This document shows, piece after piece, positions 364-60,774 of a stretch of 64,000 nucleotides of DNA. Source of the DNA: Porphyromonas catoniae ATCC 51270 (GTDB lineage: Bacteria > Bacteroidota > Bacteroidia > Bacteroidales > Porphyromonadaceae); contig NZ_JDFF01000018.1 of NCBI RefSeq assembly GCF_000565015.1, forward strand, positions 1 to 64,000, written 5' to 3'. Below the pieces are notes generated by a model, which saw only the letters and a program-made list of their open reading frames with translations, was not told the origin of the DNA and did not search any database. The first letter of the stretch is position 1; each line of letters begins with the position of its first letter. The position numbers and the translations under genes are program-made.

Positions 364-470
364 GAGTTGCCATAAGTCGCTTCAGAGACTTACCATAACT
401 CTCTACAACGACTTACCATAACTCGTTTGAGCGAGTTACCATAACTTGTTGCGACGAGTTATGGTAACTC
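364..470. repeat. Five-unit 23-bp palindromic repeat array, family A (copy A1)
   Basis: Five units start at 364, 387, 410, 433 and 456, an exact 23-bp period. Each unit has a 15-bp quasi-palindromic core close to GAGTTACCATAACTC followed by an 8-bp variable linker. Units 1-4 read CCA at the core centre and unit 5 reads TGG, so the last unit is inverted. Function unknown. Confidence 0.85.
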
Positions 471-673
471 ATTGGCAATGCTTCCAAGAATGAAAATAAC
501 ATTTTGGTTTTCAGTGCATTGCAAAAAACACCAGATAAGGCAAAAAGTGGTCATCAAATAGCCTCTCCCACACAAGAAGATGCACAAAGGGGGCATGAGG
601 AATCATAAGACGACATCTGTTGTATGGTTGCACTCTACAGAATGAGATGAAGGAGCACAAGGGATATACATAA

Positions 674-719
674 AAGCGCAAGGGTAGGGCTACTGGGATT
701 TGTAGCCCTACCCTTACGC
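674..719 (-). terminator. Rho-independent terminator of the parAB-nucleotidyltransferase cluster
   Basis: A perfect 14-bp stem (680-693 with 702-715), extended by GCG/CGC, is followed on the minus strand by TTTTATG. It lies 27 bp past the stop of the gene ending at 746. Confidence 0.75.
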
Positions 720-745
720 AGTAAGTTTGAGGTTAGATGGAGATA

Positions 746-1654
746 CTAGAAAAGTTTGCTTGGGTACTCGCCTGCGTCGACAAGAGATTGAATCTTAGCA
801 ACCACATCTGGGCGATCGGCAGCATAAGTAACACCAAACCACTGGTCTGGAGTATCCAACACTTCAACTGTCACCTTCTTCTCTGCGACAAGGAGATTAA
901 CTGGAAGCGGGATATAGTATTCAAACTTGGGGTTTGTATCCAGAGCCTTCAGGAAATGGCAGAAGAGTTCATTCGAGTAGTCAAAGTAATCTGGAGTAAA
1001 GCCCCACATATTCATTGACACAGGAGTGTTATCATCGAGATACTGCACCTCTCCATTCTCATCGGTGAAAGAGATGCGCCCATCCTCTCCTCGAGCAATA
1101 GCCGTTCGCTCAACTACCTCTGTTAGGAAGCCTCGCTCATCCACCTGACAGACACCGCGAGCGACTGTTCCGCTTTCGCTTAACGTATTACCGACACGAT
1201 ACCCAATCATGCAGTATTTATCCCTTGTGTCAGAGAAGCTACGTAGCTTATCCGCTAATGTGGCAAAACCATGGCGACCATAGAAGTCATCAGCGTTAAT
1301 TACAGCAAAAGGCTCCTTGACAACAGCTTCGGCCATCATCACAGCATGGTTTGTTCCCCAGGGTTTCTCACGGCCCTCGGGGACAGTATAGCCAGCAGGG
1401 AGCTTATCCAGGTCTTGGAAAACCACTTCAACAGGGATTTTGTGTTCATACTTTGAGATAATCTTCTCACGGAACTCCTGCTCAAAAGTGTGACGAATGA
1501 CAAATACGACCTTACCAAAGCCAGCACGGATGGCATCATAGATTGAATAGTCCATGATTGTTTCCCCCGAAGGACCAAGTCCATCCAGCTGCTTAAGACC
1601 TCCGTAGCGACTGCCCATACCAGCAGCGAGTACGACAAGAGTTGGCTGTTTCAT
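746..1654 (-). CDS. Nucleotidyltransferase (sugar-nucleotide pyrophosphorylase type)
   Basis: This 302-aa protein belongs to the NTP-transferase family that joins a sugar phosphate or similar substrate to a nucleotide. The N-terminus carries the nucleotide-binding signature AAGMGSRYGGLKQ (residues 10-22), and NADDFYG at 120-126 supplies the metal-binding aspartates expected in this fold. The C-terminal third has no motif that fixes the substrate, so the activated sugar is unknown. It is the last gene of the minus-strand parA-parB-DUF5683-transglycosylase cluster, 27 bp after its neighbour, and a strong terminator follows it. Family assignment is firm; substrate is not. Confidence 0.85.
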   Translation of the reverse strand: MKQPTLVVLAAGMGSRYGGLKQLDGLGPSGETIMDYSIYDAIRAGFGKVVFVIRHTFEQEFREKIISKYEHKIPVEVVFQDLDKLPAGYTVPEGREKPWGTNHAVMMAEAVVKEPFAVINADDFYGRHGFATLADKLRSFSDTRDKYCMIGYRVGNTLSESGTVARGVCQVDERGFLTEVVERTAIARGEDGRISFTDENGEVQYLDDNTPVSMNMWGFTPDYFDYSNELFCHFLKALDTNPKFEYYIPLPVNLLVAEKKVTVEVLDTPDQWFGVTYAADRPDVVAKIQSLVDAGEYPSKLF

Positions 1655-1681
1655 TGTTTTATAGCTTGTTATTATTGATGA

Positions 1682-3076
1682 TTACTTCTTATGTACCGAG
1701 ATACTCTGCCCGACACTGAGGCGATCAGACTTCAGACCATTAGCTCTCTTGAGCTCAGATACAGAAACCCCGTACTTGTGAGCAATGGAATAAAGGGTTT
1801 CACCAGAGCGAACCTTATGCGTTGAGTGGCTATTTGCTTTGGCCTTTCTAGATTGCCTATCACGTTTAGATGCCCTATCCCTCTTCTTTGTCTTCGTGGT
1901 CGAGGTAGCCTCTTCTACTCCTTCTGTAGATTCTTTTTGACTTTTCTTGCCTACCGTACTACTACTTGGACCTTCAAGGTTGACTCGAAGCTCTGGAGAA
2001 GAGACCTCTTCACTCAAGCTATCTAACTTAATAATTGCAGAGAGAGGGAGGCGCACAGGATAAGGTTGGTTATTGCCAGGTATAATCCCACGACGGAACT
2101 GAGGGTTGAAGGCTGAGATGGTCTCAGTATCTACCCCAGTAAGCTCAGAGATACGATCAAAGGTCACACGATGAGAGGCTGTATAGTACTCAGTCGCTAA
2201 AGGACGCCCCAGTTCTCGTGGCACGATGCCGTACTCCCGATGGTAGTGCATCGCAAAGTAAGCACCTATAAAAAGTGGTATATAGCGACGCGTTTCGTTA
2301 GGTAGATAGCGATAGATTTCCCAGAAGTTAGGTTTCTCTATGCCAGTCCTTCGTAGGGCACGATTAACATTCCCCGGGCCACAGTTGTAAGCAGCTAGGA
2401 CAAGCCACCAGTCGCCATAGATACGGTAAAGATCCTTCAGAAAGCGGCAAGCAGCCTCGGTGCTCTTCACTGGATCCATACGTTCATCTACAAGACTATT
2501 CACTGACAGACCATAGATCTTACCAGTAGGGAGCATCAGCTGCCAGAGACCAGCAGCACCAGCTGGAGAGATTGCTTTTGGATTAAGTGCCGACTCTACA
2601 ATAACTAGGTAACGAAGCTCCATGGGGAGAGCGTTCTTATCTAGAGTAACTTCGATCTCTGGGAAGTAGAGATCTGCCAAGGAAAGCATAGAGCTCAGCA
2701 ACCCTCTTCGGCGGAAAAGGTAGAGCTCAATGGCCTCTCTCACGAGAGGGTTGTAGCTAAATCGCATTGCTGAAGGCATCTTATTCAGCATGCGTATGTA
2801 CACGCTATCAGGAGTATAAGGGATGGAAACAGATGAGGGAGTATAACGCGTACTCCCTCGCACACCCTTGTGCTGGCCATACCCACTATACCAGCGCTCA
2901 AGTAATCGCTCTACATCCTGATCAAGGGAAGCAGGTAGTGTAATAGGGTCTAGGAGCGCAGAGGCTAGTGTTAAGCTAGAAGTAGTACGTCCTCGTACAC
3001 TATCCGTTTGCGCACGGAGCGAGAGTGTAGAGAGAAAGAGTAGAATGGTGGTGATTACCTTGATATAGGATTTCAT
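1682..3076 (-). CDS. Membrane-bound lytic murein transglycosylase with LysM domain (MltD-like)
   Basis: This 464-aa enzyme should cleave peptidoglycan glycan strands in the periplasm. An N-terminal signal sequence (about residues 1-22) is followed by a family 1 SLT domain: the catalytic glutamate is E161 in IVESALNP, and AGAAGLWQLM and AAYNCGPGN are the other SLT motifs. A basic, serine-rich linker (about 375-418) leads to one C-terminal LysM peptidoglycan-binding domain (420-464). It starts 11 bp after the DUF5683 gene and shares its operon with parAB, linking chromosome segregation and wall remodelling in position at least. Only one LysM is present, where many MltD proteins have two or more. 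Confidence 0.9.
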   Translation of the reverse strand: MKSYIKVITTILLFLSTLSLRAQTDSVRGRTTSSLTLASALLDPITLPASLDQDVERLLERWYSGYGQHKGVRGSTRYTPSSVSIPYTPDSVYIRMLNKMPSAMRFSYNPLVREAIELYLFRRRGLLSSMLSLADLYFPEIEVTLDKNALPMELRYLVIVESALNPKAISPAGAAGLWQLMLPTGKIYGLSVNSLVDERMDPVKSTEAACRFLKDLYRIYGDWWLVLAAYNCGPGNVNRALRRTGIEKPNFWEIYRYLPNETRRYIPLFIGAYFAMHYHREYGIVPRELGRPLATEYYTASHRVTFDRISELTGVDTETISAFNPQFRRGIIPGNNQPYPVRLPLSAIIKLDSLSEEVSSPELRVNLEGPSSSTVGKKSQKESTEGVEEATSTTKTKKRDRASKRDRQSRKAKANSHSTHKVRSGETLYSIAHKYGVSVSELKRANGLKSDRLSVGQSISVHKK

Positions 3077-3087
3077 ATAAGATCCAT

Positions 3088-3885
3088 TTAGAAGGTGAGG
3101 CTGCAGTTTACCCCCAGCTGAAACGAAGGGTTACCGAGCTTAGGCATTCCAACCTCGGGGACTACCTTGAGAGACAAATCAGGACTAATATCAAAGGTAT
3201 ATAGCTCAGCATCTACATACGCATCAAGGATAGACAGACCATATACAAGGACACTCACCACGATACTCAGGTCACGGTAGCGCCGATAGAAGTCATTTCC
3301 TCTTTTAAGCGTCTGTTTGAGTGAGGAGTATTGGGCATAATCCTCTGCCTTCGCCCCAGCTGGAGCAAAGACAAGCCAAGCAGTATTCTGTGCTGGATTC
3401 TCACTCATGATATCCCGATAGGCGGCATGATAATCTTGGTACTGCCGACTATTCCAAGATACGGAGTAGAAACAAGCCATGAATGCCCCCCATACAATTG
3501 GGAGCTTCCAATACTTACGATTATAGATCTGACCACCGCCTGGGAGTAGAGCCCATAGCATAGCCTTTCCCGAATGAGGCTTCCAGAGACTCGCCTCAAT
3601 CGAGCGAGAGAGAGCTTTTGTTGTAAGGGTATCTTGTGAATAAGCCTGCGTCTGAATGCTATCTACATGTCTACTCAAACTATCACTCCACAAGTCTCTT
3701 AGATAAGGAGACGAGGTCTTCTGCTTCGATGCATACATTCGTCCATCAACCTGCTTTACAAGTGCGGGATAATCTCCCTCGCTCATAAAAATAGAATCTA
3801 CAGGCGATGCCACAGCCCAACACCTACAGGTAAGAGCAAGTAGCACTACGAGAAGAAATGAATCAATCCGCACAAGCAAAACCAA
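3088..3885 (-). CDS. DUF5683 domain membrane protein
   Basis: This 265-aa protein has an N-terminal hydrophobic signal or anchor and a central motif, LLPGGGQIYNRKYWKLP, followed by a hydrophobic segment, which is typical of DUF5683. The family is common in Bacteroidota and often lies between parB and an mltD-like gene, as here; its biochemical role is not known. A second hydrophobic stretch near residues 205-220 suggests at least two membrane spans. It begins 20 bp after parB and is followed 11 bp later by the transglycosylase gene, so co-transcription is likely. Confidence 0.75.
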   Translation of the reverse strand: MVLLVRIDSFLLVVLLALTCRCWAVASPVDSIFMSEGDYPALVKQVDGRMYASKQKTSSPYLRDLWSDSLSRHVDSIQTQAYSQDTLTTKALSRSIEASLWKPHSGKAMLWALLPGGGQIYNRKYWKLPIVWGAFMACFYSVSWNSRQYQDYHAAYRDIMSENPAQNTAWLVFAPAGAKAEDYAQYSSLKQTLKRGNDFYRRYRDLSIVVSVLVYGLSILDAYVDAELYTFDISPDLSLKVVPEVGMPKLGNPSFQLGVNCSLTF

Positions 3886-3905
3886 TGAATCGTCTAAGTA
3901 AGCCC

Positions 3906-4808: not shown

Positions 4809-4811
4809 CTA

Positions 4812-5576: not shown

Positions 5577-5663
5577 TATATATAATAGCTCGTATCATCA
5601 AAACGCATCTTCCCTCAGCTGTAGTTCATTTATGGGGATCATACAGCCAAGTCAATCGGTTTC

Positions 5664-5671
5664 CAAAGCTA
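5664..5671 (-). promoter_or_regulatory. -7 box for the parA cluster
   Basis: TAgcTTTG on the minus strand, about 90 bp before parA. No clear -33 box is visible, so the call rests on one element. Confidence 0.35.
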
Positions 5672-6146: not shown

Positions 6147-6200
6147 CTCTCTGACCTTTCTTAGCCTCACCCTAAAGTAGCCCCAGCAACCACCCTCTAG

Positions 6201-6315
6201 GAGTACCAAGGAAACCTCATCGGAGGTATCCCCGATACCTCTAGAGAGGTTACGGGGAAAGCTATGGGGAGGTTACGGGGATACCTCTCCCAAGGTATCC
6301 CTTCGTCTTATTAGC
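6201..6315. repeat. Five-unit 23-bp palindromic repeat array, family B (copy B1)
   Basis: Units begin at about 6201, 6224, 6247, 6270 and 6293, exactly 23 bp apart. The core is close to AGGTATCCCCGATACCT or its relative AGGTTACGGGGATACCT. The array lies about 80 bp upstream of the -7 box of the acyl-CoA synthetase gene. Confidence 0.8.
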
Positions 6316-6396
6316 AAGGTGTGAAAAGAGGGTCAAGAGGGTCGTAGTTTCCCCCAGAGGAAGGGGTGCAAGACTACGAGGTAAGGGGAAAAGGAG

Positions 6397-6404: not shown

Positions 6405-6511
6405 CACAGATTTTGAATTGTGTGCAGGATTAGTCTCCTTCGTGGCGCAATAAGCACAAAGCACACAGGTTTACTCAGCTTGACAAGACAGCATAACTTA
6501 GCTTTATAAGG

Positions 6512-12710: not shown

Positions 12711-12747
12711 CAAAGGGCTATACTCTATATCGGAGTATAGCCCTTTG
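12711..12747 (+). terminator. Hairpin after ackA
   Basis: A perfect 15-bp stem (12711-12725 with 12733-12747) lies 28 bp past the stop. There is no proper T-run, so it may act as an mRNA end-stabilising hairpin. Confidence 0.55.
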
Positions 12748-15180: not shown

Positions 15181-16269
15181 ATGGCCATAGAGAACGACCT
15201 GCTTAGTCGTATAGAGAGCTTGGAGGTACGCTTCCAAGAGATCACCACCCTCATCACTGCACCCGATGTTATCGCTGACCAAAGGCGATTTATGAAACTC
15301 AGCAAGGAGTATCGAGATCTAGAGCGCATATTGGATAAGGGGAAGGAGTACCGAAACCTTCTTGGGAATATCCAAGAGGGGAAGGATACACTAGAGACAG
15401 AGAGTGACCCAGAGCTGCGTACTATGGCTCGTGAGATGGTGCAGGAGGCCGAGGATCGTATCCCTTCACTAGAGGAGGAGATCAAGCTCCTACTCATCCC
15501 TGCAGATCCTGAGGATGCAAAGAATGTCGTCATGGAGATCCGTGGCGGCACAGGTGGGGATGAGGCAGCACTCTTTGCTGGAGATCTCTACCGCATGTAC
15601 GTACGCTATTGTGAAGGGCGAGGATGGACAACAGAAGTCACAAGCGTTAGCGAGGGTACTGCTGGTGGCTATAAGGAAATTGTCTTCACCGTCTCTGGGG
15701 ATGGTGTCTATGGGGTACTCAAGTATGAGAGTGGTGTCCACCGAGTGCAGCGAGTACCTGAGACAGAGACCCAAGGTCGTGTCCATACATCAGCTGCCTC
15801 TGTCGCCGTGCTCCCAGAGGCAGAGGAGGTAGACGTTGTCCTAAACCCTGCCGATATAGAGATGCAGACCGCACGCTCTGGCGGGGCTGGTGGACAGAAT
15901 GTAAACAAAGTAGAAACAAAGGTCCAGCTCACCCACAAGCCTACAGGCATCGTGGTCGTCTGCCAACAGGCTCGTACCCAGTTGGCAAACCGTGAGCTCG
16001 CCATGCAGATGCTCCGCACGAAGCTCTACGATATCGAGCTCACCAAGCACAATGAAGAGATTGCCGCACGCCGTAAGACTATGGTTTCCACAGGAGACCG
16101 CTCGGCTAAGATACGCACCTACAACTATCCCCAGGGGCGCGTAACTGATCACCGTATCAACCTCACGTTGTATAATCTGTCTGCGATTATGTCTGGTGAG
16201 ATACAGCCCATCATTGACGAACTAATCATCGCAGAGAATATTGAACGAATGAAGGAAGCTGCTCTCTAG
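15181..16269 (+). CDS. prfA: Peptide chain release factor 1
   Basis: This 362-aa protein ends translation at UAA and UAG. The peptidyl-hydrolysis motif GGQ lies in [17 protein letters not shown], and the stop-codon-reading PxT tripeptide is seen as PET in [14 protein letters not shown], which marks RF1 rather than RF2. Length is normal and there is no sign of programmed frameshifting, consistent with RF1. A degenerate 22-bp repeat array separates it from pyrF. Confidence 0.95.
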
Positions 16270-16274: not shown

Positions 16275-16384
16275 CATACTCGCTTCAGAAAAAGGAATCC
16301 TATATTTTTCCCAAAGCTCTAGAGATTGTTCCGAAAGGGACTAGACATCTTTTCAAAAAACACTAGAGATTCTTTCTAGAAGGT
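16275..16384. repeat. Five-unit 22-bp degenerate repeat array, family D
   Basis: Units start at 16275, 16297, 16319, 16341 and 16363, a 22-bp period. The last three share CTAGAnAT and a TTC-rich centre; the first two are diverged and support only the spacing and the AAA-rich tail. The array fills most of the prfA-pyrF gap. Confidence 0.5.
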
Positions 16385-16430: not shown

Positions 16431-17267
16431 ATGACAAAAGAAGAACTATTTGATAATATACGGAGGAAGAAGTCCTTCCTTTGCATTGGGTTAGATACCG
16501 ATGTACGCAAGATTCCGCAATTCCTATTGAGTGAGGATGACCCCATCTTTGCGTTCAACAAGCGAATCATTGATGCCACAGCCCACCTCTGTGTGGCGTA
16601 TAAGCCCAACCTCGCCTTCTATGAGAGCATGGGGTCCTTTGGCATCCTAGCTTTCGAGAAGACTATAGAGTACCTGCGTCAGCAGTACCCAGATCAGTTC
16701 ATCATCGCTGATGCCAAGCGAGGTGACATCGGGAATACGAGTGATATGTATGCCCGTAGCTTCTTTGAGCACCTCAAGGTGGATGCACTCACCGTAGCCC
16801 CCTATATGGGAAGCGACAGCGTACTTCCCTTCCTAAAGTATACCCACCATTGGGTTGTCTTACTCGCCCTTACCTCCAACGAGGGGGCAGAGGACTTCCA
16901 ACTCACCAAGACTGAGGATGGGGATGCACTCTTCGAGCTTGTACTCAAGAAGAGCCTAGCTTGGGGTGGTAGTGACCAGCTCATGTATGTCGTGGGGGCA
17001 ACGAAGGCCTCAATGCTAGAGCGAGTACGTGCGATTGTCCCCGAGTCCTTCCTCCTCGTTCCAGGCGTTGGGAGCCAAAATGGCAGTCTGGAGGAAGTTG
17101 CCTTACATGGGCTAAATAGCCAGTGTGGGCTACTCGTCAATGCCTCTCGAAGCATCATCTATGCAGACAACACTGAGGCTTTCGCCAGCGGTGCTGCAGC
17201 CGAAGCTGAGAAGCTACGTCACCAGATGGCAGATATCCTTATTAAGAATAAACTCGTAGAGGCCTAG
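16431..17267 (+). CDS. pyrF: Orotidine 5'-phosphate decarboxylase
   Basis: This 278-aa enzyme makes UMP from OMP in pyrimidine synthesis. The catalytic Lys-Asp network is in [18 protein letters not shown], and CIGLDTD near the N-terminus holds the substrate-binding aspartate. Length and motif spacing match the longer subfamily 2 found in Bacteroidota and mycobacteria rather than E. coli PyrF. lpxD follows 31 bp later on the same strand. Confidence 0.93.
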
Positions 17268-19766: not shown

Positions 19767-20558
19767 ATGTCGCATACAAATATTAGCCCACTGGCCTCCG
19801 TACACCCAGAGGCTAAGATTGCTGAGGGTGTCGTAGTACACCCCTTTGCCCTCATCGAGGAGAATACCGAAATCGGTGAAGGCTGTATCATCGAGAGCCA
19901 CGCTGTAATTAAGAGCGGGGCACGACTAGGGAAGTACTGTCATATCCACTCAGGAGCTGTGATAGCTGGCATCCCACAGGACCTAAAGTTCGCCGGAGAA
20001 GAGAGTATCGCCATCGTAGGGGACCACACGATGGTTCGTGAATGTGCTACTATTAACCGTGGGACAGCCTCCCGTGGGCGCACGATCGTTGGTAGCCATT
20101 GTCTCTTGATGGCCTACTCACACGTGGCGCACGACTGCGTCCTTGGGGACCACGTCATCCTAGGGAATGCTACCCAGGTAGCTGGAGAGGTAGAGATTGA
20201 CGACTACGCTATCCTCAGTGGTGGGTCGCTCATTCATCAGTTCGTCCGCATCTCACAGCATGTCATGCTACAGGGTGGATCTAGGGTGAATAAGGACATT
20301 CCTCCCTACACGCTCATCGGGCGAGACCCGATTGTCTATTGCGGGATTAACATCGTTGGGCTTCGTCGCCGAGGCTTTACGAACGAGCAGATCTTCCGCA
20401 TCAACGATATTTACCGTACCCTCTATCAGCGTGGGCTGAACAATACGGAGGCATTCAAGGCCATCGAAGAGGAGATCCCCGAGAGCTATGAGCGACAGCT
20501 CATCCTTGACTTCATTCGCTCCTCAGAGCGAGGGATCGTCCGAGGGACCATGGACTAA
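19767..20558 (+). CDS. lpxA: UDP-N-acetylglucosamine acyltransferase
   Basis: This 263-aa hexapeptide-repeat enzyme catalyses the first acylation of lipid A synthesis. Repeats such as IGEGCIIESHAVIKSGA run through the first two thirds, and the catalytic histidine lies in LLMAYSHVAHDC. The C-terminal helical part contains NIVGLRRRGFT, typical of LpxA. It closes the lpxD-lpxC/fabZ-lpxA block, and a terminator candidate follows within 20 bp. Confidence 0.95.
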   Translation: MSHTNISPLASVHPEAKIAEGVVVHPFALIEENTEIGEGCIIESHAVIKSGARLGKYCHIHSGAVIAGIPQDLKFAGEESIAIVGDHTMVRECATINRGTASRGRTIVGSHCLLMAYSHVAHDCVLGDHVILGNATQVAGEVEIDDYAILSGGSLIHQFVRISQHVMLQGGSRVNKDIPPYTLIGRDPIVYCGINIVGLRRRGFTNEQIFRINDIYRTLYQRGLNNTEAFKAIEEEIPESYERQLILDFIRSSERGIVRGTMD

Positions 20559-20674: not shown

Positions 20675-20790
20675 CTCTAACAAGCCTCTTTCCTACCCTT
20701 GCATGGGGTATTTTGAGACCCATGCAAGGGTTTCCCTCGAAGTCCTTGCATGGCTCTGCCACAAACCCCTATAAGGATTTCCCTACCGCC
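20675..20790. repeat. Five-unit 23-bp repeat array, family C
   Basis: Units start at 20675, 20698, 20721, 20745 and 20768 (period 23, once 24). Units 2 and 4 carry CTTGCATGG, while unit 3 carries the reverse form CATGCAAGG and units 1, 3 and 5 share a TTTCCCT-like second half. Units 2 and 3 form a 12-bp perfect hairpin (20697-20708 with 20719-20730). Confidence 0.7.
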
Positions 20791-20872
20791 GCATAAAGGC
20801 ATTCACGAACCAAGGTAGGTATGTGTGGCGTAGAGCGCCCCTTCCTTCACCCAGCACGACCACTTAGTATTT

Positions 20873-22381
20873 ATGCAAAAGATCTATACGGGTAAGCAAC
20901 GAGATGACCTATACCGACTTGCCCAGCAGCATGATCACCTTTCACCCGAGGATCGTATAGAGCGAGCAGCCCGATCCTTCGAGCAGGAGTTTCGTCGTCT
21001 CTATCCCCCTACAGGGCATACCATATATGTCTTCGCAGGGGCAGGACGCTCTGGAGCCTATGCCCTAGGTATAGCCCGCTATCTCGCACAGCGTGGATAC
21101 ACCGTATGTTCGTACCTATTCTATCGTGAAGGGAAGCTCTCTGAGGAATGCGAGGCTGTACGAAAGAGCATTGCCGAGGAAGACCTTCGGCTGGAGGAGA
21201 TTTACACCGACTTCACTCCACCCCGTATCCAAACAGCAGATGTGCTGATAGATGGTCTCTTTGGGGCAGAGCTCTCCACTCCTCTCTTCGGTGGATACCT
21301 AGGCTTGGTAGACTTCCTCAACGCCTCTGGTGCCTCCATCGTGAGCATTGAGCTCCCTAGTGGACTCTTTGCAGAGGACAACTCTGGCAATGACCTCGAG
21401 CATGTCATCAAAGCCAAGTACACCATCGCCTTCGACAGCCCATACCTCGCCTTCTACTTCGAGGAGAATGAACCTTACGTAGGTGAATGGATCTACCTCC
21501 CTCAGGGTATTAGCCCTCGCACACAGGATAGCCTAGAGGTAAGCCATTACCAAGTAACGGATACCGCTCTAGAGGGTGTACTCAAGAGGCACACACGCTT
21601 TAGCCTCAACCACGAGCCAGGCAAGGTACTTTTCCTCACCAACCAGACAGGCAGTGCCGGTAAGACCCTCCTTGCTACCAAGGCTGCCCTCCACACGGGT
21701 TGCTCCGAGGTACATGCACTAGTACCCAGCGAAGAGGCTCTAGCACTGCAACTCGCTCTGCCCGAACTGACACTTCCCTCTGCACCAAAGGCCTCCGTAC
21801 TAGCCAATCTCAATACATACCAGACAATCGTCATAGGAGCAGGTTTTGGCCGTAGTGAGGAAGCAGCTGCTACCCTCAGAGAGCTACTCATTACCTCATC
21901 ACGCCCTTTGCTCCTCTCAGGCGATGGACTCCAGATACTGAGCAGGGAGCGGTCTCTCCTAGAGCGTATTCCCGTAGATAGTATACTCCTCTTGAGCCCC
22001 AGCGAATTTGACTCACTCACCACGGCACACCGTAGTGATGCCGAGCGGCTAGATCGTGCGCTAGAGCTGGCTGAGCGACTCGATATATACATCGTACTCA
22101 GGGGTGCATACACAGCGATCTGCCTCCCTAGTGGAGTGACCTTCTTCGACGTGGCAGGCAATAGTGGACTACGCTCTACGGGCTGTACAGAAGTCCTCCT
22201 TGGGGTCATCGCTGGACTCTTGGGTGATGGCTATAAGTCTGTTACAGCGGCCACACTTGGGGTGCATCTCTGTGCGCTGGCGGCAGAGCTCTACGCTGGG
22301 CGTTACTCAGAGCGTAGCCTCACGGCCACAGAGCTCATTGATCAGCTGAGCAGTGCCTACCGCCAGCTCGAGGCCCATTAG
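20873..22381 (+). CDS. Nnr-like NAD(P)HX epimerase/dehydratase homologue with degenerate active sites
   Basis: This 502-aa protein has the two-domain layout of Nnr, which repairs damaged NAD(P)H: a YjeF_N epimerase domain (about 1-215) and an ADP-dependent dehydratase domain (about 235-502). The fold-level sequence is recognisable (DGLFGAELSTPL, ELPSGLFAEDN, LRGAYTA), but key motifs are changed. The epimerase NNGGD motif is RSGAY, and its DxPSG aspartate is Glu. In the dehydratase, DADAL is SGDGL, the TPHPxE histidine is absent and GSGDVL is GCTEVL. It is probably no longer a normal Nnr enzyme; it might bind nucleotide only. A shared terminator separates it from convergent tadA. Confidence 0.75.
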   Translation: MQKIYTGKQRDDLYRLAQQHDHLSPEDRIERAARSFEQEFRRLYPPTGHTIYVFAGAGRSGAYALGIARYLAQRGYTVCSYLFYREGKLSEECEAVRKSIAEEDLRLEEIYTDFTPPRIQTADVLIDGLFGAELSTPLFGGYLGLVDFLNASGASIVSIELPSGLFAEDNSGNDLEHVIKAKYTIAFDSPYLAFYFEENEPYVGEWIYLPQGISPRTQDSLEVSHYQVTDTALEGVLKRHTRFSLNHEPGKVLFLTNQTGSAGKTLLATKAALHTGCSEVHALVPSEEALALQLALPELTLPSAPKASVLANLNTYQTIVIGAGFGRSEEAAATLRELLITSSRPLLLSGDGLQILSRERSLLERIPVDSILLLSPSEFDSLTTAHRSDAERLDRALELAERLDIYIVLRGAYTAICLPSGVTFFDVAGNSGLRSTGCTEVLLGVIAGLLGDGYKSVTAATLGVHLCALAAELYAGRYSERSLTATELIDQLSSAYRQLEAH

Positions 22382-26636: not shown

Positions 26637-26806
26637 CGCTGATTTGGCTTGTTCGCTTTGCCTATTCCTTCATCCTAGAGGTACCCCCATCCAAAGATTC
26701 CAAGGCTCTACCCTCCCATGCGTGAGCAAATAACGAGGCTCGCACAACCAAACGCAACACCCTTAAAACAAGCTATTTACAACGACGAAAACAAGTGGCA
26801 TCAACT

Positions 26807-26913
26807 AGTTATAGTAACTCGTTGCAACGAGTTGTGGTAAGTCGCTTCGAAGAGTTATAGTAAGTCGTCGTAACGAGTTACCACAACTCGTCATAGCGAC
26901 TTATGGTAACTCA
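26807..26913. repeat. Five-unit 23-bp palindromic repeat array, family A (copy A2)
   Basis: Units start at 26807, 26830, 26853, 26876 and 26899 at exactly 23 bp. Cores vary (TAGTTATAGTAACTC, GAGTTGTGGTAAGTC, GAGTTACCACAACTC) but keep the dyad symmetry and the 8-bp linkers. This copy is the most diverged of the four. Confidence 0.85.
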
Positions 26914-31299: not shown

Positions 31300-31407
31300 G
31301 ACTTACCATAACTCCTTATAAAGAGTTACTATAACTCTCTTCAACGACTTACCATAACTCGTAGGAACGAGTTACCACAACTCTTGGATAACGACTTATG
31401 GCAACTC
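31300..31407. repeat. Five-unit 23-bp palindromic repeat array, family A (copy A3)
   Basis: Units start at 31300, 31323, 31346, 31369 and 31393 (23-bp period, last step 24). Cores follow GACTTACCATAACTC or GAGTTACCACAACTC, and unit 5 is inverted (centre TGG), as in A1 and A4. Confidence 0.85.
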
Positions 31408-38443: not shown

Positions 38444-38558
38444 AGGCTCTTTCAGCAAGGCCCTAGGGTTTCCCTCGTAACCTCAAAATAGTTATCCCCG
38501 TAACCTCAGAGGAGGTTACGGGGATAACTATTTTGAGGTTACGAGGGTACCTCCTCAA
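38444..38558. repeat. 23-bp palindromic repeat array, family B (copy B2) with a 36-bp hairpin
   Basis: Units start at 38467, 38490, 38513 and 38536, exactly 23 bp apart; a diverged fifth fits at 38444. Units 1-2 and 3-4 are exact inverses, producing a perfect 36-bp inverted repeat (38472-38507 with 38512-38547) around a 4-nt loop. The core is close to AGGTTACGGGGATAACT. Confidence 0.85.
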
Positions 38559-43382: not shown

Positions 43383-43497
43383 GCAGTATGCTTGTGACCC
43401 CTCGTGAGGTAGCCTCGTAACCTCTCAGGAGGTATGCCCGTAACCTCTCGTGAGGTTCCCTCGTAACCTCCGAAGGGGTTATGGGGATACCTATTTT
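43383..43497. repeat. Five-unit 23-bp palindromic repeat array, family B (copy B3)
   Basis: Units start at 43383, 43406, 43429, 43452 and 43475, exactly 23 bp apart. Cores vary around GAGGTATGCCCGTAACCTC; the last unit is in the inverted form (GGTTATGGGGATACC). It lies inside a run of co-directional genes between thiL and tsaC. Confidence 0.85.
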
Positions 43498-47709: not shown

Positions 47710-47761
47710 CTAAATAGTTTATACTACCTAACCAGCTGGAGTACACCGCAGAGGGTAAAAT

Positions 47762-47876
47762 AGGTATTGAGGAAAACCCTCTGAAGGTATCCCCGTAAAC
47801 CCAAGAGGGGTATCCCCGTAACCTCCGTACAGTTATCCCCGATACCTGCGGAGAGCTATCGGGGAGAACCTTTTTA
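47762..47876. repeat. Five-unit 23-bp palindromic repeat array, family B (copy B4)
   Basis: Units start at 47762, 47785, 47808, 47831 and 47854, exactly 23 bp apart. The middle units carry AGGTATCCCCGTAA-like cores and the last is inverted (AGCTATCGGGGAGAACCT). It lies upstream of the sppA promoter and downstream of porE. Confidence 0.85.
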
Positions 47877-54635: not shown

Positions 54636-55373
54636 TTAATAACTAACCTTCAACTCAGTACCTTCGTAATAGCTAGTACAACTGGCACGTATTACAACGT
54701 TTTGTTCCCCTGTTGTGATTAGCTTTCAATTCAGAACCTTCGTAATAGCTAGTACAACTAAACATCAGCGTGGAGCATATTGTCTCCGTTGTGATTAGCT
54801 TTCAATTCAGTACCTTCGTAATAGCTAGTACAACTAGCAAGGCGTGTGGTGTTACGATACTTGAGTTGTGATTGGCTTTCAATTCAGTACCTTCGTAATA
54901 GCTAGTACAACCTGAAGGCAAGGTAAATAAGCAGCAGCAAGGTTGTGATTGGCTTTCAATTCAGTACCTTCGTAATAGCTAGTACAACGCTGGAGAGTAA
55001 TACGCTTACGCATAGCTGGTTGTGATTGGCTTTCAATTCAGTACCTTCGTAATAGCTAGTACAACAGCGAGACAAGGAGGCAGTGCGCCAAGCACGTTGT
55101 GATTGGCTTTCAATTCAGTACCTTCGTAATAGCTAGTACAACTCTTAGCAATAACGTCATTGATTATAGCTTGTTGTGATTGGCTTTCAATTCAGTACCT
55201 TCGTAATAGCTAGTACAACTGCCTGCGGGTGGTATATGATGGGCGCTGAGTTGTGATTGGCTTTCAATTCAGTACCTTCGTAATAGCTAGTACAACTCCA
55301 CGACGGAGAAACGGGAACGGACTACCGTTGTGATTGGCTTTCAATTCAGTACCTTCGTAATAGCTAGTACAAC
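54636..55373 (+). CRISPR. Type II-C CRISPR array, 10 repeats and 9 spacers
   Basis: The 47-bp repeat begins GTTGTGATTGGCTTTCAATT and ends ATAGCTAGTACAAC. Repeats start at 54636 (degenerate 5' half), 54712, 54788, 54865, 54942, 55019, 55096, 55173, 55250 and 55327. Spacers are 29-30 nt. The second repeat has A for G at position 10 and A for T at position 24; the third has only the position-10 change; the other seven are identical. In II-C systems the crRNA reads spacer then repeat, and complementarity to the tracrRNA found at 60355-60380 fixes transcription on the plus strand, convergent with cas2. The degenerate repeat is at the end away from the cas genes. Confidence 0.98.
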
Positions 55374-55426
55374 TGACCATAGATATTCAGCTATGCACTA
55401 GCTCCTTACGAGGATTTATAGAAAAG

Positions 55427-55457
55427 AAAAAGCCGATGGTGTTCCATCGGCTTTTTG
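55427..55457. terminator. Bidirectional terminator between CRISPR array and cas2
   Basis: A 9-bp perfect stem AGCCGATGG/CCATCGGCT (55431-55439 with 55444-55452) has A-runs on the left and T-runs on the right, fit to stop both array and cas transcription. Confidence 0.85.
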
Positions 55458-55480
55458 TATATATCAGAGAAAAGAATTAC

Positions 55481-55825
55481 TTAAAATCCGAATAGATCAA
55501 GAGGGGGAGGAGCTACTGGCGGCTTAGTTGGAATATGCGAAGAGAAGTGCTCCATCATCCCAAACTGCTTGTCCGTGATTGTCATAATCACTACATCTCC
55601 CTCTTCGGGGAGCATATTCTTCACTCGTCGTACATGCACAGCTGCATTCTCCGCACTCGCACAATGGCGCATGTAGATAGAGTATTGAAACATCGAAAAG
55701 CCATCCTTGAGAAGACTTTGGCGAAAGCCTGAGGCAGCTTTACGCTCTAGTGCAGTATAAGTAGGAAGATCAAAGAAGACGAAGACCCACATAACACGAT
55801 ATTCACTTAGTCGACTTGCTTTCAT
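55481..55825 (-). CDS. cas2: CRISPR-associated endonuclease Cas2
   Basis: This 114-aa protein is the structural dimer of the Cas1-Cas2 spacer integrase. The N-terminal strand VMWVFVFFDLPTYTALERK has the conserved aspartate, and SMFQYSIYMRHCASAENA with VVIMTITDKQFGMM fits the ferredoxin-like fold. The C-terminal tail is proline-rich (PTKPPVAPPPLDLFGF), slightly longer than minimal Cas2. It overlaps the cas1 stop by 4 bp, so the two are co-translated. The array begins 107 bp downstream. Confidence 0.95.
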   Translation of the reverse strand: MKASRLSEYRVMWVFVFFDLPTYTALERKAASGFRQSLLKDGFSMFQYSIYMRHCASAENAAVHVRRVKNMLPEEGDVVIMTITDKQFGMMEHFSSHIPTKPPVAPPPLDLFGF

Positions 55826-56730
55826 CGAAGTAGGGGATAAGATATCTTACGAATTTCTCCTTGGAAGCAGCGGAGCAAAGAGCTAGCAGTCAGAGAAACA
55901 GCTACCATCAAAGGATGGCGCTGTCCATCTATCTCGACATCTAGGGTAGGGATGGAGAGGAGCTGTACCTTCAGCTCCTTTGTAAGTGCCATGGGAATCT
56001 CCTCCTCACAGATCTCGACGACCAACTGATCCACATAGGGGCGGTAGGGCTCCATGATATCATCCGCTAGGCAGTAGGCATTGTACTTGTTATGATGGTG
56101 GATACCCAGCGTCGGGAGTAGACCGCAGCTGACGAGTGCACGGGCGACGATGGCCCTCAGGATTGCGTAGCCGTAGTTGAGAAGGGCATTGGGAGCCGCC
56201 TCCTCACGCTCTCGGACGAAGCCAGGCAGAGAGATGAAGAGGTTGCGCCAATAGAAGGCCGCCGCTCGAGCCTCTAGGTTCTCCGAGTCGCCACTCTTCA
56301 CCTGCTTGGCCCAGGCAAGTAGGTTCTTCGCAGGTTCCCCAAGGACTTGCCCGAGGAGCGTGGCTTGATTGAGGATCTTAGCCTGCACGGTTTGTTGCCA
56401 GAGTTGCTTCCGTAGGGGAAGGGAGGCCTCCAGCTGCGTACGGAAGCGCTCATTCTGGAGCGTGTGCCCATCGAGGGGAAGTAGAAGTCCTGCAGGCAGG
56501 TGACTAGGAGAACACGTTACTACGGCGCAGTTATTCTCTAAGAGTGCATGCAGGAGCCCATGGGTGATGGTGATCTGCTGATGGTCGAGTAGGACGACCC
56601 CAATATCTTCTATTGGGATCGTCCGTACAAGACGCTTAGCTTCCCCCTCACAGGGCTGACGCACCTCTATCTGCTTATTCCTAAGGGCGAGGTAGGCAGG
56701 GCTCCCGAAGTAAAGGGTATGCTTCATCAT
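55822..56730 (-). CDS. cas1: CRISPR-associated integrase Cas1 (type II)
   Basis: This 302-aa metal-dependent nuclease integrates new spacers. The catalytic residues can be read as E153 (NLEARAAAFYWRNLF), histidine in LGIHHHNKYNAYC (about 211-213) and D/E in LADDIMEPYRPYVD (about 223-227). A second methionine follows the first, so the start is 56730 or 56727. It follows cas9 by 17 bp. Neither csn2 nor cas4 is present, which defines subtype II-C. Confidence 0.96.
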   Translation of the reverse strand: MMKHTLYFGSPAYLALRNKQIEVRQPCEGEAKRLVRTIPIEDIGVVLLDHQQITITHGLLHALLENNCAVVTCSPSHLPAGLLLPLDGHTLQNERFRTQLEASLPLRKQLWQQTVQAKILNQATLLGQVLGEPAKNLLAWAKQVKSGDSENLEARAAAFYWRNLFISLPGFVREREEAAPNALLNYGYAILRAIVARALVSCGLLPTLGIHHHNKYNAYCLADDIMEPYRPYVDQLVVEICEEEIPMALTKELKVQLLSIPTLDVEIDGQRHPLMVAVSLTASSLLRCFQGEIRKISYPLLR

Positions 56731-56747
56731 GATACTAGCCTATTGAC

Positions 56748-59700
56748 TCAGACAAGTGATATTCTCCCTAGGAGGTCTATCTTCACCTTGCGAGGGTTAA
56801 GCTTCACATATGCTTTCAAGCTTTGAGCCCTATAAGATTTTGGGATTTCCCCCACGTTATCTTTACCATCAAGTGTTGTCTCCAAGTGATACCTAAATAC
56901 GTAGTCATGTGTCGCTAGTTTCTGTACCCGATACAGGTGGCGACTCAGCGTAGGATAGTCCTCTCCTTCTATCGCAGCTTGGATTTCCCCATCCTTCATC
57001 CCGATCAGGAACATATCATTCATACGTAGCACCTCCATCAGACGTAGATTAGAGGCTGGGAGAGCCCTAAGAACCGATTCTGGGAGCTCTGGGATGGCAA
57101 GAGCTTTCTCCATCACCTCTCGTGGATTGACAACTACAATAGGTAGGCCGTAACGGGCTCGCTCGACTGCCTGCCAGAAGGTAACAATCGACTCAACCAC
57201 ATTTCCATCATCATCCTTATATAGGGCTAGGTGATGATTGTTCCCTGGCGCAACAAAGCCCACGGCTTCACCCTCAATATTGTATCTAAGTGGTACGAGC
57301 TTAGACTGATCCTTACCCGTAAAACACCGAACACTGCGTACCTCTTGCGTCTTTGCCTCATCTAGATAAAGAGGCTCTGCAAAGGCTTGCTTCTCTCCAT
57401 ATTGTGAGATACGCTCTCTGACCTTTTCGCGTAGTACTTCGTCTACAATGTAGCCAACGTCCTTTGGCTTCAGGCTCTGGAGTGGATATTTGCATACGAC
57501 CTTATCTACCCCATCGACACTGATTACCCCATAGATAGTCTCCTCGGAGAGTGCACCTCGTGGGATAAGTACCCCCCTCTGCACATCGGTCTTACCCGAA
57601 CGCTTGTAGATATTACGACCTCGGGATATGGTACGCTTACCTGGGCGGAGTGAGACAAGGATACCTTCAACGTGCTTCGTCACCTCTCCGGTCGTGAAGT
57701 GAGGCTGTCTAATGAGCCAATGCTCCAACAGGGAGAGTTTCTCTTTCTTGGAGGGTTTCTGCTCTTGTTGCTCCTTGATGAACGCATCCATCTCCTGACG
57801 ATCAGCCTCTGCATTCACCCTATTGAGTCGCTGTATGTAGCTCTGCCGAGTACAAGCGACGATAAGGGCATCAACAGCATGGTGGCGATGATCCTTTCGC
57901 TTGGACCAATCCTTAATACGCTCATCCGTACGCTCTCCATCCCGATGCTCTACCGTAACGACTTCTGTCTCACCCATAGATCTATATCGCTCTAGGTTGA
58001 GGTCTCGCAGGATATTGTCATACCCCCACAGCTGACGAAGCTTAGCAGTGACACCACCCTCGGAGGCACTCACCAGTCGTATCCCCTTACGGAGGATGCC
58101 CTGTGCCTCACGAGAGATATACTGAGTGAGACGTAGATGACGCTCAATGAAGTCTTCGGGCAGATTCTCAGGTAGCATCAAGAGGCGCTGACGCTTAGAG
58201 TCGGATATCTTCTTACCTTTGAAGAGGGTTTCTATCCGACTGATGTAGTCCTGTTCCCACCCCTTGGTCTGGATGTACACCATTGCAAAGCGATTACCTT
58301 TCTCTTGGTTACACGAGCGACAGGCACAGACCTTATTCGACATAGAGTCATCGAAGAGGATTGACCTCGGGATGATATGCTCTACCTCAATCTCCTCACC
58401 TCTGAGAAATTGCACAACACCCACAGGATTACCACAATAGATACACCTCCCTCCAGACTCCTCCCACAGACTATACTTTTGGATACGAGCCTTCGTAGGA
58501 GTAATGTCTTCCGCTGCTATACGCTTGGCTATAGTCTCGTTTTTTCCCTTTCGTTTACGATTGTTACTTAAGACCTGCTCTCGTTCCTCACGGCTCATCT
58601 TTAGTTCACGAGCCAGTTCGACACGCACCTCATCAATCTCGCCATGTTCCCTCTTGAGCGCATTGACGAGGTTGATCATCTGGTTTAGGATCTTCTCGAC
58701 CACAGGCTGACGTAGGGCATTCTTTTGCAGGAGAGGGATTTCCTCTAGCAGGCTACGCTCATCTCGCTCCTGGGCAGTCATACTATCGGAGTGTCGTACT
58801 CCTGCAGCCTCGGCAGCCTCGCTATACATCTTACCCTCCTGGAGGTGAGGAAGGAGCTTACAGATGAACTTGGCTGACTTGTTTCCATAGCCCTGCTTGA
58901 CAAAGTCGATTTTATAGAGGGCATCCATCAGCCCACTATCTAAGTCCTCGGCCTTAATGCCTAGTTGCCCAATCAAGGCACTGCGCATCTCTTCCCTATC
59001 CTCGATGGAATAAAGGATGTGCCAGAGCTTATAGAGAGGTTCGTTCTGATAAGACTCATCAATGATTGGACGAATAACTCCATCCTCATCGACTTCGTGA
59101 GAATCCCTTGTCGTTAGATTAAACCTGAGTAGACCCTCATACTGCTCATATCCTTTCAGCACCTTGCGCAAGATAGCAGCAGTTGTATTCCCTGCTATCC
59201 CATTCACTAGCAGCTTATCACACCAGAGCTTATCCTTCGGCTTAATTTTAAGCTCCTTGCGAAGCACAGTAAGGCTGAGCTTATCGTTCTCCTGGAGGTA
59301 GTCAAAGAGCTTTTGCTTCTCCTCCTGCTCCAGCACTCGCTCTGTGCCATCAGGATGGTAAAGGCGGATGTTATGAATGGATTCCCAGACCTTGCAGACC
59401 TGGAAGATTGGGGAAGATTTCGGGGCTACCTTGGGACCAATGGTTATGGTCTTCTCAACAAGCTCCTCGACACCCTCCTTGTTGGTATGCTTTACTCGTA
59501 TGACCTTCTCCTTCTTCTCAAACTCACAGAAGGAGACCAACTGCTTGCATGACTTCAGAGGACGCTGATAGAAGATGATGCGGTCTCGTATCCTACCGAT
59601 CAGTGCGTCTGTAAGGAGCTCGGGATAGAACACCCTCTGCGCTGCCATGATGCGGTCATACTCCTCGATGTAGGCCTCACGGGGATAGACCTGCTTCTTG

Positions 59701-60308
59701 ATGCGGTAGGTATAGTAGGTGCCTCTGGGGGCAGTTTGTTGATTAGCTCTTAGCTCCCCAGCGAAGTGTTGACCGATGGTCTGCCCCTTCTCTTTTAGGG
59801 CCTGGTAACGTCCTTTGACTTGAGCTACATAGCTCTCCTTTTCCTTCTTGGCCTTGCTCTCGGTCTCAGCCTCGGCAGCTTCATCGGCCTTTGCGTGCTT
59901 GTAGCCTCGCTTCTGATTGATGTGGAGTAGCACCCGTCCTAGTTCAGTTAGGCTCAGCTGCTCTCCTGGCGTAGCAGCTCGAGCCCGTAGCTCCCAGAGC
60001 TCCAGTAGAGGGAGCTTAATCAGAGCTTCATCGGGGAGCATCCCATGCTCACGGAGCACCTTCTTTAGAGCTTCTCGTCGTAGCTGATAGCGATCCATGC
60101 CCTTGCGGATGGTGCGTGCCACCGTGCGCATCTTGTTCTTGGTGATCGCCTTACCCTGGGTGAATTCTGTAGCATCATCCGCAGAGAGGGGCACGATACG
60201 GCTCCCCATTCCTAGGATACTCTGTGGTTTCTCATCTTTGTCTAGGGTGATTAGGCACCACCCGATAGACCCGACACCGAGGTCGAGACCAAGTACTTTC
60301 TTTCCCAT
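56748..60308 (-). CDS. cas9: CRISPR-associated endonuclease Cas9 (type II-C)
   Basis: This 1186-aa RNA-guided nuclease has all expected parts: RuvC-I with D9 in LGLDLGVGSIGW, an arginine-rich bridge helix (about 60-85), a REC lobe shorter than in Streptococcus Cas9, RuvC-II with E564 in VRVELARELK, the HNH domain with H644 in EVEHIIPRS and N667, and RuvC-III with HHAVDALIVAC (809-819). The HNH domain is flanked by two CxxC pairs (C622/C625 and C663/C666), a likely zinc site. The C-terminal 300 residues should read the PAM, which cannot be predicted here. No catalytic residue is missing, so the nuclease looks active. cas1 and cas2 follow; the tracrRNA is divergent upstream. Confidence 0.97.
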   Translation of the reverse strand: MGKKVLGLDLGVGSIGWCLITLDKDEKPQSILGMGSRIVPLSADDATEFTQGKAITKNKMRTVARTIRKGMDRYQLRREALKKVLREHGMLPDEALIKLPLLELWELRARAATPGEQLSLTELGRVLLHINQKRGYKHAKADEAAEAETESKAKKEKESYVAQVKGRYQALKEKGQTIGQHFAGELRANQQTAPRGTYYTYRIKKQVYPREAYIEEYDRIMAAQRVFYPELLTDALIGRIRDRIIFYQRPLKSCKQLVSFCEFEKKEKVIRVKHTNKEGVEELVEKTITIGPKVAPKSSPIFQVCKVWESIHNIRLYHPDGTERVLEQEEKQKLFDYLQENDKLSLTVLRKELKIKPKDKLWCDKLLVNGIAGNTTAAILRKVLKGYEQYEGLLRFNLTTRDSHEVDEDGVIRPIIDESYQNEPLYKLWHILYSIEDREEMRSALIGQLGIKAEDLDSGLMDALYKIDFVKQGYGNKSAKFICKLLPHLQEGKMYSEAAEAAGVRHSDSMTAQERDERSLLEEIPLLQKNALRQPVVEKILNQMINLVNALKREHGEIDEVRVELARELKMSREEREQVLSNNRKRKGKNETIAKRIAAEDITPTKARIQKYSLWEESGGRCIYCGNPVGVVQFLRGEEIEVEHIIPRSILFDDSMSNKVCACRSCNQEKGNRFAMVYIQTKGWEQDYISRIETLFKGKKISDSKRQRLLMLPENLPEDFIERHLRLTQYISREAQGILRKGIRLVSASEGGVTAKLRQLWGYDNILRDLNLERYRSMGETEVVTVEHRDGERTDERIKDWSKRKDHRHHAVDALIVACTRQSYIQRLNRVNAEADRQEMDAFIKEQQEQKPSKKEKLSLLEHWLIRQPHFTTGEVTKHVEGILVSLRPGKRTISRGRNIYKRSGKTDVQRGVLIPRGALSEETIYGVISVDGVDKVVCKYPLQSLKPKDVGYIVDEVLREKVRERISQYGEKQAFAEPLYLDEAKTQEVRSVRCFTGKDQSKLVPLRYNIEGEAVGFVAPGNNHHLALYKDDDGNVVESIVTFWQAVERARYGLPIVVVNPREVMEKALAIPELPESVLRALPASNLRLMEVLRMNDMFLIGMKDGEIQAAIEGEDYPTLSRHLYRVQKLATHDYVFRYHLETTLDGKDNVGEIPKSYRAQSLKAYVKLNPRKVKIDLLGRISLV

Positions 60309-60322
60309 AGTACTCTTATATT

Positions 60323-60353
60323 TCGTTAGTTAATCATTATTTGGCTACCTTCG
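60323..60353 (+). promoter_or_regulatory. tracrRNA promoter with TACCTTCG box
   Basis: TACCTTCG (60346-60353) lies 20 bp after TTCG (60322-60325) and about 7 bp before the anti-repeat body. It differs by one base (C for T) from the usual TAnnTTTG and is identical to the box inside the CRISPR repeats. Confidence 0.55.
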
Positions 60354-60357
60354 TGGT

Positions 60358-60454
60358 ACTGATTTGAAGCTAAGCACAATAAGGATTTCGTTCCGTTGTG
60401 AAAACATCCAAGGCGGGGGGCGGAGGTAATAACTCCAAGCCTCGCCTTTCTTTT
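60358..60454 (+). ncRNA. tracrRNA of the type II-C system
   Basis: Positions 60355-60380 pair with the first 27 nt of the CRISPR repeat with one bulge and two mismatches. The transcript, about 97 nt, then has a small GGA/TCC hairpin (GGATTTCGTTCC), the single-stranded GTTGTGAAAACATCC region and a terminator: 60412-60418 with 60440-60446 around an inner GGAG/CTCC stem, followed by TTTCTTTT. The start is inferred from the promoter box and could be a few bases off. It is read divergently from cas9 and supplies the RNA needed to process crRNA and load Cas9. Confidence 0.9.
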
Positions 60455-60667
60455 GTGTTTACATGCCAGCCCATGAGGTACCCTTGTTATGCAGGCTAAG
60501 TTACTGACTTTTCGAACAAATAGCAAATAAAAAACACAAGAGAGCAAGGGCAGTATACACACCACAAAGTATAAGGCCACCCAACAGCCAAACAAACGGT
60601 ATATACACAAGTGAAAATCAACACTTTACAAGAACATAAAACACGATTCCCTTGACCTCCCCTCCAT

Positions 60668-60774
60668 GAGTTACCATAACTCCTTTTTGCGACTTACCAT
60701 AACTCGCTCTGACGAGTTACCATAACTCTCTAAAACGAGTTACCACAACTCGTTACTAAGACTTATGGTAACTC
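60668..60774. repeat. Five-unit 23-bp palindromic repeat array, family A (copy A4)
   Basis: Units start at 60668, 60691, 60714, 60737 and 60760, exactly 23 bp apart, with cores GAGTTACCATAACTC, GACTTACCATAACTC and GAGTTACCACAACTC. Unit 5 is the inverted form. It is the most regular copy and lies just beyond the CRISPR locus. Confidence 0.88.

Follow-up and report, generated by a model that had tools for sequence, protein, structure and literature searches.

The first 64,000 nucleotides of contig NZ_JDFF01000018.1 from Porphyromonas catoniae ATCC 51270 (the window; contig C18) carry ten short intergenic arrays of tandem repeat units. The genome (G000) comprises 2.04 Mb in 25 contigs. An earlier note, made from the window alone, had described ten arrays of five 22-23-bp units, with one architecture and several unrelated sequences. 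Here the arrays are followed through about a quarter of the genome (a 464-kb sample: the window plus C9:1-180000 and C11:1-220000) and into related species, and they are compared with the genes for HU-like proteins whose binding sites they probably are.

Arrays in the window

Periodic repeats are present at all ten positions, so this part of the earlier description is confirmed. Tandem Repeats Finder (TRF) at score 40 recovered eight of the ten and missed those at 6201 and 20675. Units were counted by position weight matrix (PWM) or by eye, as follows.

364..470, plus strand: family A array; five units at 364, 387, 410, 433 and 456, in the order ++++-
6200..6310, unstranded: family B array; four PWM units (6200, 6223, 6246, 6269) and, by eye, half a fifth to 6310
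16289..16380, unstranded: about four 22-bp units by eye, core near AAAGnnnCTAGAnATTCTTT (family C of the earlier note)
20693..20798, unstranded: family D array; four PWM units (20693, 20716, 20740, 20763) and a weak fifth by eye
26806..26912, minus strand: family A array; five units, order ---+-
31300..31407, plus strand: family A array; five units, order ++++-, last spacing 24
38466..38553, unstranded: family B array; four units (38466, 38489, 38512, 38535) and, by eye, a weak fifth from 38444
43383..43493, unstranded: family B array; four PWM units (43406-43475) and a degenerate first unit by eye
47761..47871, unstranded: family B array; five units
60668..60774, plus strand: family A array; five units, order ++++-, with a degenerate sixth unit 28 bp beyond

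Family A, with core GAGTTACCATAACTC and a period of 23 bp, has five units in all four of its window arrays (364, 26806, 31300 and 60668), spaced at 23 bp and once at 24. Of the 28 A arrays in the sample, 27 likewise consist of five units at 23 or 24 bp; the remaining array has six. (At C9:61012, one of the five-unit arrays, an extra exact unit follows 28 bp past the end.) Normalised for orientation, unit order is ++++- in 17 arrays, +-+++ in four, -+++- in three, +++++ in three, and +++++- in one.

Family B (core GAGGTATCCCCGATACCTC) has four, four, four, and five PWM units in the window arrays at 6201, 38444, 43383, and 47762, with a degenerate fifth visible by eye; within the second of these, the array at 38466..38553, positions 38472-38507 are perfectly complementary to 38512-38547. 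By PWM, the sample holds 13 B arrays, nine of four units, three of five, and one of six, plus three single matches. Family D (core AACCCATGCATGGGTT, 23-24 bp) has four PWM units at spacings of 23-24 bp in the window array at 20675, and six, four, and two arrays of four, five, and six units, respectively, in the sample. The window array at 16275 shares the 22-bp period of family C (core TTCTCCTATAGGAGAA), has a different core, and comprises about four 22-bp units by eye or 2.6 copies by TRF. Family E (core TACCTCGCAAGTGCGAGGTA, 22 bp) was found only at its HU_rel gene (see below), and family F (core ATCACCTATCATAGGTGAT, 23 bp) is followed by B-type units.

Five is therefore a near-exact unit number for family A, but not for every family. 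The earlier count holds for A and for the main P. pasteri family described below; in B and D the number runs from four to six, and four is commonest. The period is 23 and occasionally 24 bp in A; B, C, and D span 22-24 bp.

Abundance, constraint, and layout

To what extent do such arrays exceed chance? A sequence-blind scan of the 464 kb summed dyad symmetry over four equally spaced centres and retained scores of at least 24. It peaked at 23.0 bp (32 regions), with five regions at 24 bp, two at 22, two at 21, and none or one at each remaining period from 18 to 29.5 bp. Shuffled sequence gave none or one at each period, so the periodic arrays exceed chance; the arrays are real. The genome contains 443 sites that match the A pattern GASTTAYNRTAASTC and none that match its reversed control. 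Genome-wide, the number of A arrays is estimated at about 133 (scaled from the sample) or 125 (from exact cores).

The A units are conserved in part only. With the six-unit array and the one with a 24-bp step set aside, 26 of the A arrays remain for comparison; pairwise identity among them is 89% for the core arms and 49% for the 8-bp spacers, against 48% expected from composition. The cores are kept while the spacers are random, which indicates that the cores are under constraint. Spacers are no more alike within arrays (45%) than between them (47%), and the most similar of 325 spacer pairs reaches 75%. Thus there is no sign of recent duplication, and recent slippage or copying was rejected as an account of family A. 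The flanks of the A arrays, for about 50-60 bp on each side, share a weak, mutually inverted consensus that includes GTTAnnnCCCCTTTT when read outward, possibly (by eye) with a second dyad that has TTTGCAAA arms.

Placement was examined for 53 arrays, using simple gene predictions made for this analysis; families A and B were scanned regardless of genes, and the others were picked by eye. Coding sequence makes up 83% of the sample, yet none of the 53 midpoints falls within a predicted gene. Both neighbours are known for 51: 28 lie between co-directional genes, 19 between divergent and four between convergent ones, versus 31.2, 16.0, and 3.8 expected from intergenic room. Contexts follow the available room, and a promoter or terminator role for the dispersed arrays was rejected on that basis.

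The arrays also avoid one another. All families pooled, gaps between the 60 arrays of the sample average 7.4 kb, and none is shorter than 3.1 kb. No gap falls under 3 kb, versus 12.7 expected, and the coefficient of variation is 0.43 versus 0.77; none of 10,000 simulations was as extreme. (The list combines 49 automatic calls with 13 places from the profile list, giving 60 after places less than 600 bp apart were merged, and the simulations applied the same merging rule. By eye, window 12754, a hairpin, and C11 36430 were removed, and window 16340 and C9 8470 were added; the result is unchanged by these edits.) Because the avoidance holds between unrelated families, recombinational loss between like arrays is no simple explanation. 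In P. pasteri (G010) there are likewise no gaps under 3 kb, versus 3.8 expected (59 of 5,000 simulations).

Same geometry in other species

The exact A core GASTTACCATAACTC is absent from all 25 other genomes of the genus. Among the 13 relatives' stretches scanned (those long enough, of 20), five (G004, G010, G011, G012, and G016) contain, by eye, arrays of palindromes with a period of 22 to 23 bp and different cores. The earlier claim of one architecture with differing sequences is thereby upheld, and extended from families to species.

In 420 kb of P. pasteri, 13 of the regions found by the dyad scan have a period of 22.0 bp, and periods of 20, 24, and 25 have a single region each; shuffled sequence gave none at 22. 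The GACCAGTACTGGTC family of this species has exactly five units in all 14 of its arrays, spaced 22,23,22,22 in 11 and mirrored in three. (This count used a fixed core with up to three mismatches and at least three units; it replaces a profile that drifted and mixed families.) In G012, arrays of the main family CGACCTACnGTAGGTCG with at least three units comprise eight of three, eleven of four, and four of five. A small unit number is the rule across species, though not always five.

Similar patterns were seen elsewhere. In stretches L031:12127-12315 and L049:2198-2350, from two relatives, units centred on CACGTG and units resembling AAACTTCGGAGGAAT recur about every 21 bp and may be a further array type. 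Periodic 21- to 23-bp palindromic arrays also occur in L063, L069, L096, L099, and L102, from Carboxylicivirga, Bacteroides, and Parabacteroides contigs.

HU_rel genes and their upstream repeats

The Pfam family PF18291 (HU-HIG) was chosen on the guess that Bacteroidetes HU-like proteins are involved. It has 17 matches in the P. catoniae genome, all 17 over the cut-off, two of which are short canonical HU genes; there are 195 matches in the 26 genus genomes, and every genome has some. All three proteins scanned also pass NCBIfam TIGR01201 (HU_rel), at 78.9-95.4 bits against a cut-off of 68.6. Beyond the genus, strong matches (E<1e-15) were found in seven of 59 other genomes of the order. Queried with one HU_rel protein each, a PDB sequence search gave no match at 0.01 and viral contigs gave none.

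Several P. catoniae HU_rel genes have a private array directly upstream. Repeats were sought in 104 upstream regions: 89 of the 178 PF18291 matches in the 25 relatives, picked mainly by score order with extra G010 and G016 rows, and 15 of the 17 from P. catoniae, the two short HU genes being excluded. At an identity of at least 33 of 55 positions, a lag of 22 was found in 37 regions, 21 in 11, and 23 in 12; every other lag from 12 to 40 appeared in one to three. (These counts include L200, a region with a masked run and with repeats also next to it, and two broken open reading frames (ORFs), L135 and L201.) Lags of 21-23 occur upstream of 46 of the 89 relatives' HU_rel genes, versus eight of 181 control genes drawn from 20-kb stretches of 13 of the same genomes (Fisher p=4e-19); two of the eight are G023 genes next to a run that registers at all lags. 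In P. catoniae itself the figures are 8 of 15 versus 33 of 324. Outside the genus, the 22-bp lag was found in eight of 26 upstream regions from seven genomes (27 regions minus one masked).

The period follows the protein. In 45 of 52 cases it agrees with that of the nearest HU_rel in another genome (below 85% identity), compared with a mean of 21.4 and a maximum of 35 when shuffled. At the extreme C-terminus, the HU_rel proteins of one species are almost alike, and species differ from one another: GGGGVGI in P. catoniae, HVGI in G010, HVGA in G012, GGGL in G008, and GEGI in G006 (proteins L131-L144 and L147-L236). This was measured on the 70 of 102 proteins whose final residues are G followed by I, L, V, A, or M. 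Over the last four positions, agreement between dissimilar paralogues of the same genome is 75% (145 pairs). Shuffling the genomes lowers it to 43% (at most 49% in 2,000 shuffles), and close homologues from different genomes agree at 50%. A species-wide C-terminus fits a shared partner.

Some loci show further features. The HU_rel gene L135 (G000:C23:1620) has a broken reading frame and keeps its 22-bp upstream repeats. The HU_rel genes L132, L136, and L141, all near contig ends, follow long ORFs that continue past the end of the stretch; at L132 and L136, the long ORF and the HU_rel gene are separated by a tRNA-arm-like sequence (GGCTCGTGGGTGCAA..TCCCAC).

Shared cores

In four species, dispersed arrays and an HU_rel-upstream array have a common core, judged mostly by eye. 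For example, a motif scan matched the dispersed C, D, and F cores of P. catoniae to the arrays upstream of HU_rel genes L136, L138, and L139. The main G012 core matches the array upstream of HU_rel L211 (three units by scan). The P. pasteri GACCAGTACTGGTC core lies upstream of HU_rel L233; the scan detects two units there, one exact and the other a variant, and a third is visible by eye. Further dispersed cores of this species match by eye: GAAAGTAATATAACATTC at L227, AAACGTATACGTTT at L234, ACTATATAGCTTT at L235, and ATACGTATTAAT at L232. In P. gingivalis (G005), the published BrickBuilt repeat has 219 matches with up to two mismatches; one array, at C1:961378-961442, lies upstream of the HU_rel gene at 961562. 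From Table 1 of the BrickBuilt paper (PMC4596501), we infer that this is BrickBuilt_14, beside PGN_0872.

Family A is tied to HU_rel by slender evidence: an isolated GAGTTATAGTAACTC about 230 bp before the HU_rel gene at C12:51971, and another about 750 bp before C4:22821. With one mismatch allowed, the 464 kb contains no A-like unit away from arrays, and among the A-pattern sites listed (C1 to C4) the sole isolated one is C4:22064.

A model and its alternatives

These associations suggest that the arrays are side-by-side binding sites of HU_rel/HU-HIG proteins, and that the resulting particles probably serve autoregulation and chromosome organisation. Each palindrome would take one HU_rel dimer. 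Dimers would stack at 21-24 bp, about two helical turns, with neighbours cooperating; the stack would bend or wrap the DNA, and with four or five sites the result would be a nucleoprotein particle whose size is fixed at about 88-115 bp. HU_rel paralogues would own separate core sequences. The array copy upstream of an HU_rel gene could then mediate autoregulation, and the kinds of array spread between genes could form a sparse ladder along the chromosome that organises the nucleoid. An architectural role is proposed because the layout is spaced and blind to promoters. Binding, wrapping, autoregulation, and the chromosomal role are inferred from genome comparison, and the earlier suggestion of protein-binding or nucleoid-anchoring sites acquires, by genomic association, a candidate protein family.

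A number of observations weigh against this model. A full A array precedes none of the HU_rel genes, although A is the largest family; no HU_rel partner was found for family B, and units of family D precede a short canonical HU gene, L145, as well. Confidence is a little lower because several of the core matches were made by inspection. At the threshold used, 43 of the 89 relatives' HU_rel genes lack an upstream repeat. The 42 HU_rel-upstream arrays range from three to 13 units (three in seven, four in 16, five in seven, six in six, more in six), and their consensus units reach palindromic quality at p<=0.05 in only 23 of 42. The mixed P. pasteri profile gave five units in only 22 of 44 arrays with at least three. 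The agreement of period with protein is support rather than proof, as gene and upstream DNA may simply be co-inherited. Spacing variation is not below expectation in P. pasteri (1,829 of 5,000 simulations), and G012 has no even spacing (coefficient of variation 1.0). HU itself is described as a non-specific binder (PMC5683647). Comparable orthologous gaps, a comparison proposed in the earlier note, number ten with P. pasteri and one with G012. Both window arrays with a comparable gap, those at 16275 (between prfA, 15181-16269, and pyrF, 16431-17267) and 20675 (between an lpxA-like gene, 19767-20558, and a gene at 20873-22381), are absent from P. pasteri, where the gaps are 69 and 49 bp versus 161 and 314 in P. 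catoniae; these positions are not conserved.

One alternative is that the arrays are miniature inverted-repeat transposable elements (MITEs) or minisatellites: dispersed, non-autonomous copies like BrickBuilt, moved by a host transposase, with the HU_rel tie reflecting a captured promoter or accessory factor. BrickBuilt was published as a MITE with terminal inverted repeats (PMC4596501). Besides the two arrays missing from P. pasteri and the A core missing from all 25 relatives, the flanks of the 28 A arrays carry a weakly conserved, mutually inverted consensus. Family A nonetheless lacks the closely similar dispersed copies expected of a MITE, since its spacers are random in identity. The even spacing across unrelated families in P. 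catoniae also speaks against mobility, and mobility would not account for the tie to a single gene family (46 of 89 versus 8 of 181). The genome has no Y1 transposase, other transposases lying outside this search; with PF01797 (Y1, TnpA_REP) giving no match there, repetitive extragenic palindromes (REPs) or paired REPINs with a REP-associated tyrosine transposase (RAYT) were rejected. The small mobile element that the earlier note allowed for is therefore weakened, kept alive by presence and absence between species and by the weak inverted flanks, and we consider it unlikely. Transcriptional operators, with HU_rel proteins as local regulators and the dispersed arrays as their regulons, seem only slightly less doubtful. 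The HU_rel-upstream arrays (n=42) end a median of 76.5 bp before the start codon, and at L134 a single A unit directly precedes TAnnTTTG, which we take to be a promoter-like motif. But the dispersed arrays track room in all gene contexts, including the four convergent gaps, and about 130 A arrays are many for one regulon. Elements acting in RNA, such as terminators or mRNA-stability hairpins, are very improbable: the palindromes could form hairpins, but several cores are loopless (CCCATGCATGGG, TTCTCCTATAGGAGAA), A cores often retain uncompensated GAC/CTC ends, and 19 of 51 arrays lie in divergent gaps. In the window, one tRNA is the only Rfam match at gathering score, and known RNA families were rejected.

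Binding by HU_rel proteins thus remains the reading we favour. The genome carries well over a hundred arrays, and the tie of several kinds of array to HU-like genes suggests an undescribed chromosome-organising system. A bolder version, offered tentatively, is a programmable chromatin of the Bacteroidales: sequence-specific HU paralogues with private palindrome codes might form fixed-size, nucleosome-like particles of four or five dimers (about 90-115 bp) at spaced intergenic arrays, joined by a species-specific C-terminal tail, the code turning over between species while the geometry is kept. If true, bacterial histone-like proteins would have private, fixed-size DNA arrays along the chromosome; the large expansion of HU-related proteins would acquire a function; and the BrickBuilt repeat, published and so far unexplained, would find its explanation. 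Sequence-specific chromosome packing in Bacteroidales becomes directly testable.

Other features of the window

A terminator-like hairpin at 12711-12747, with 15-bp perfect arms (CAAAGGGCTATACTC/GAGTATAGCCCTTTG), lies between co-directional genes. The GH20 protein shares 68-69% identity with its counterparts in P. pasteri and Porphyromonas oral taxon 278. The window also contains a CRISPR-Cas locus.

54649-60308, minus strand: Type II CRISPR-Cas locus
54649-55374: CRISPR array, repeats of about 47 bp and spacers of about 30 bp (TRF consensus)
55481-55825, minus strand: candidate cas2, by ORF size only
55822-56730, minus strand: Cas1 (Pfam)
56748-60308, minus strand: Cas9-like (Pfam)

Comparison with known systems

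Open-access literature searches turned up no paper joining HU_rel/HU-HIG proteins with repeat arrays. BrickBuilt is a 23-nt tandem repeat with 19 dispersed copies in P. gingivalis, each of 1 to 22.8 direct repeats (PMC4596501). Like the arrays described here, it is intergenic, dispersed, and tandem at 23 nt, and it too forms an array upstream of an HU_rel gene; its ends are inverted, to which the weak inverted flanks of the A arrays may correspond. Its repeat, AGAYCATARTATCCTCTCRTRTG, differs by inspection from P. catoniae cores A-F; unlike BrickBuilt, the present arrays mostly have four to six units, belong to several core families per genome, and have spacers of random identity. Copy 14 is the shortest (84 nt), beside PGN_0872, a 'DNA-binding protein'; the main text of that paper merely lists this protein as the neighbour of copy 14 and uses neither 'histone' nor 'nucleoid'. 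PG0121 of P. gingivalis, described as an HU homologue, was assayed with an inverted repeat of 77 bp, and E. coli HU negatively regulates its own genes (PMC3969353). PG0121 belongs to the same superfamily as HU_rel, and the passages on it describe no array code.

Nucleoid-site sets offer a further parallel. Dispersed, mostly palindromic sites are bound by an architectural or division protein in the bacterial interspersed mosaic elements (BIMEs) of E. coli (IHF), and in the Noc, SlmA, and MatP/matS systems. The non-random distribution expected of such nucleoid sites is found in P. catoniae, more weakly in P. pasteri, and not in G012. The arrays resemble these sets as dispersed palindromes, here with a protein association drawn from genomes alone. 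The known systems have one site type per protein, mostly as single or paired sites, whereas the Porphyromonas arrays form several parallel families, vary little in unit number, and change their cores from species to species.

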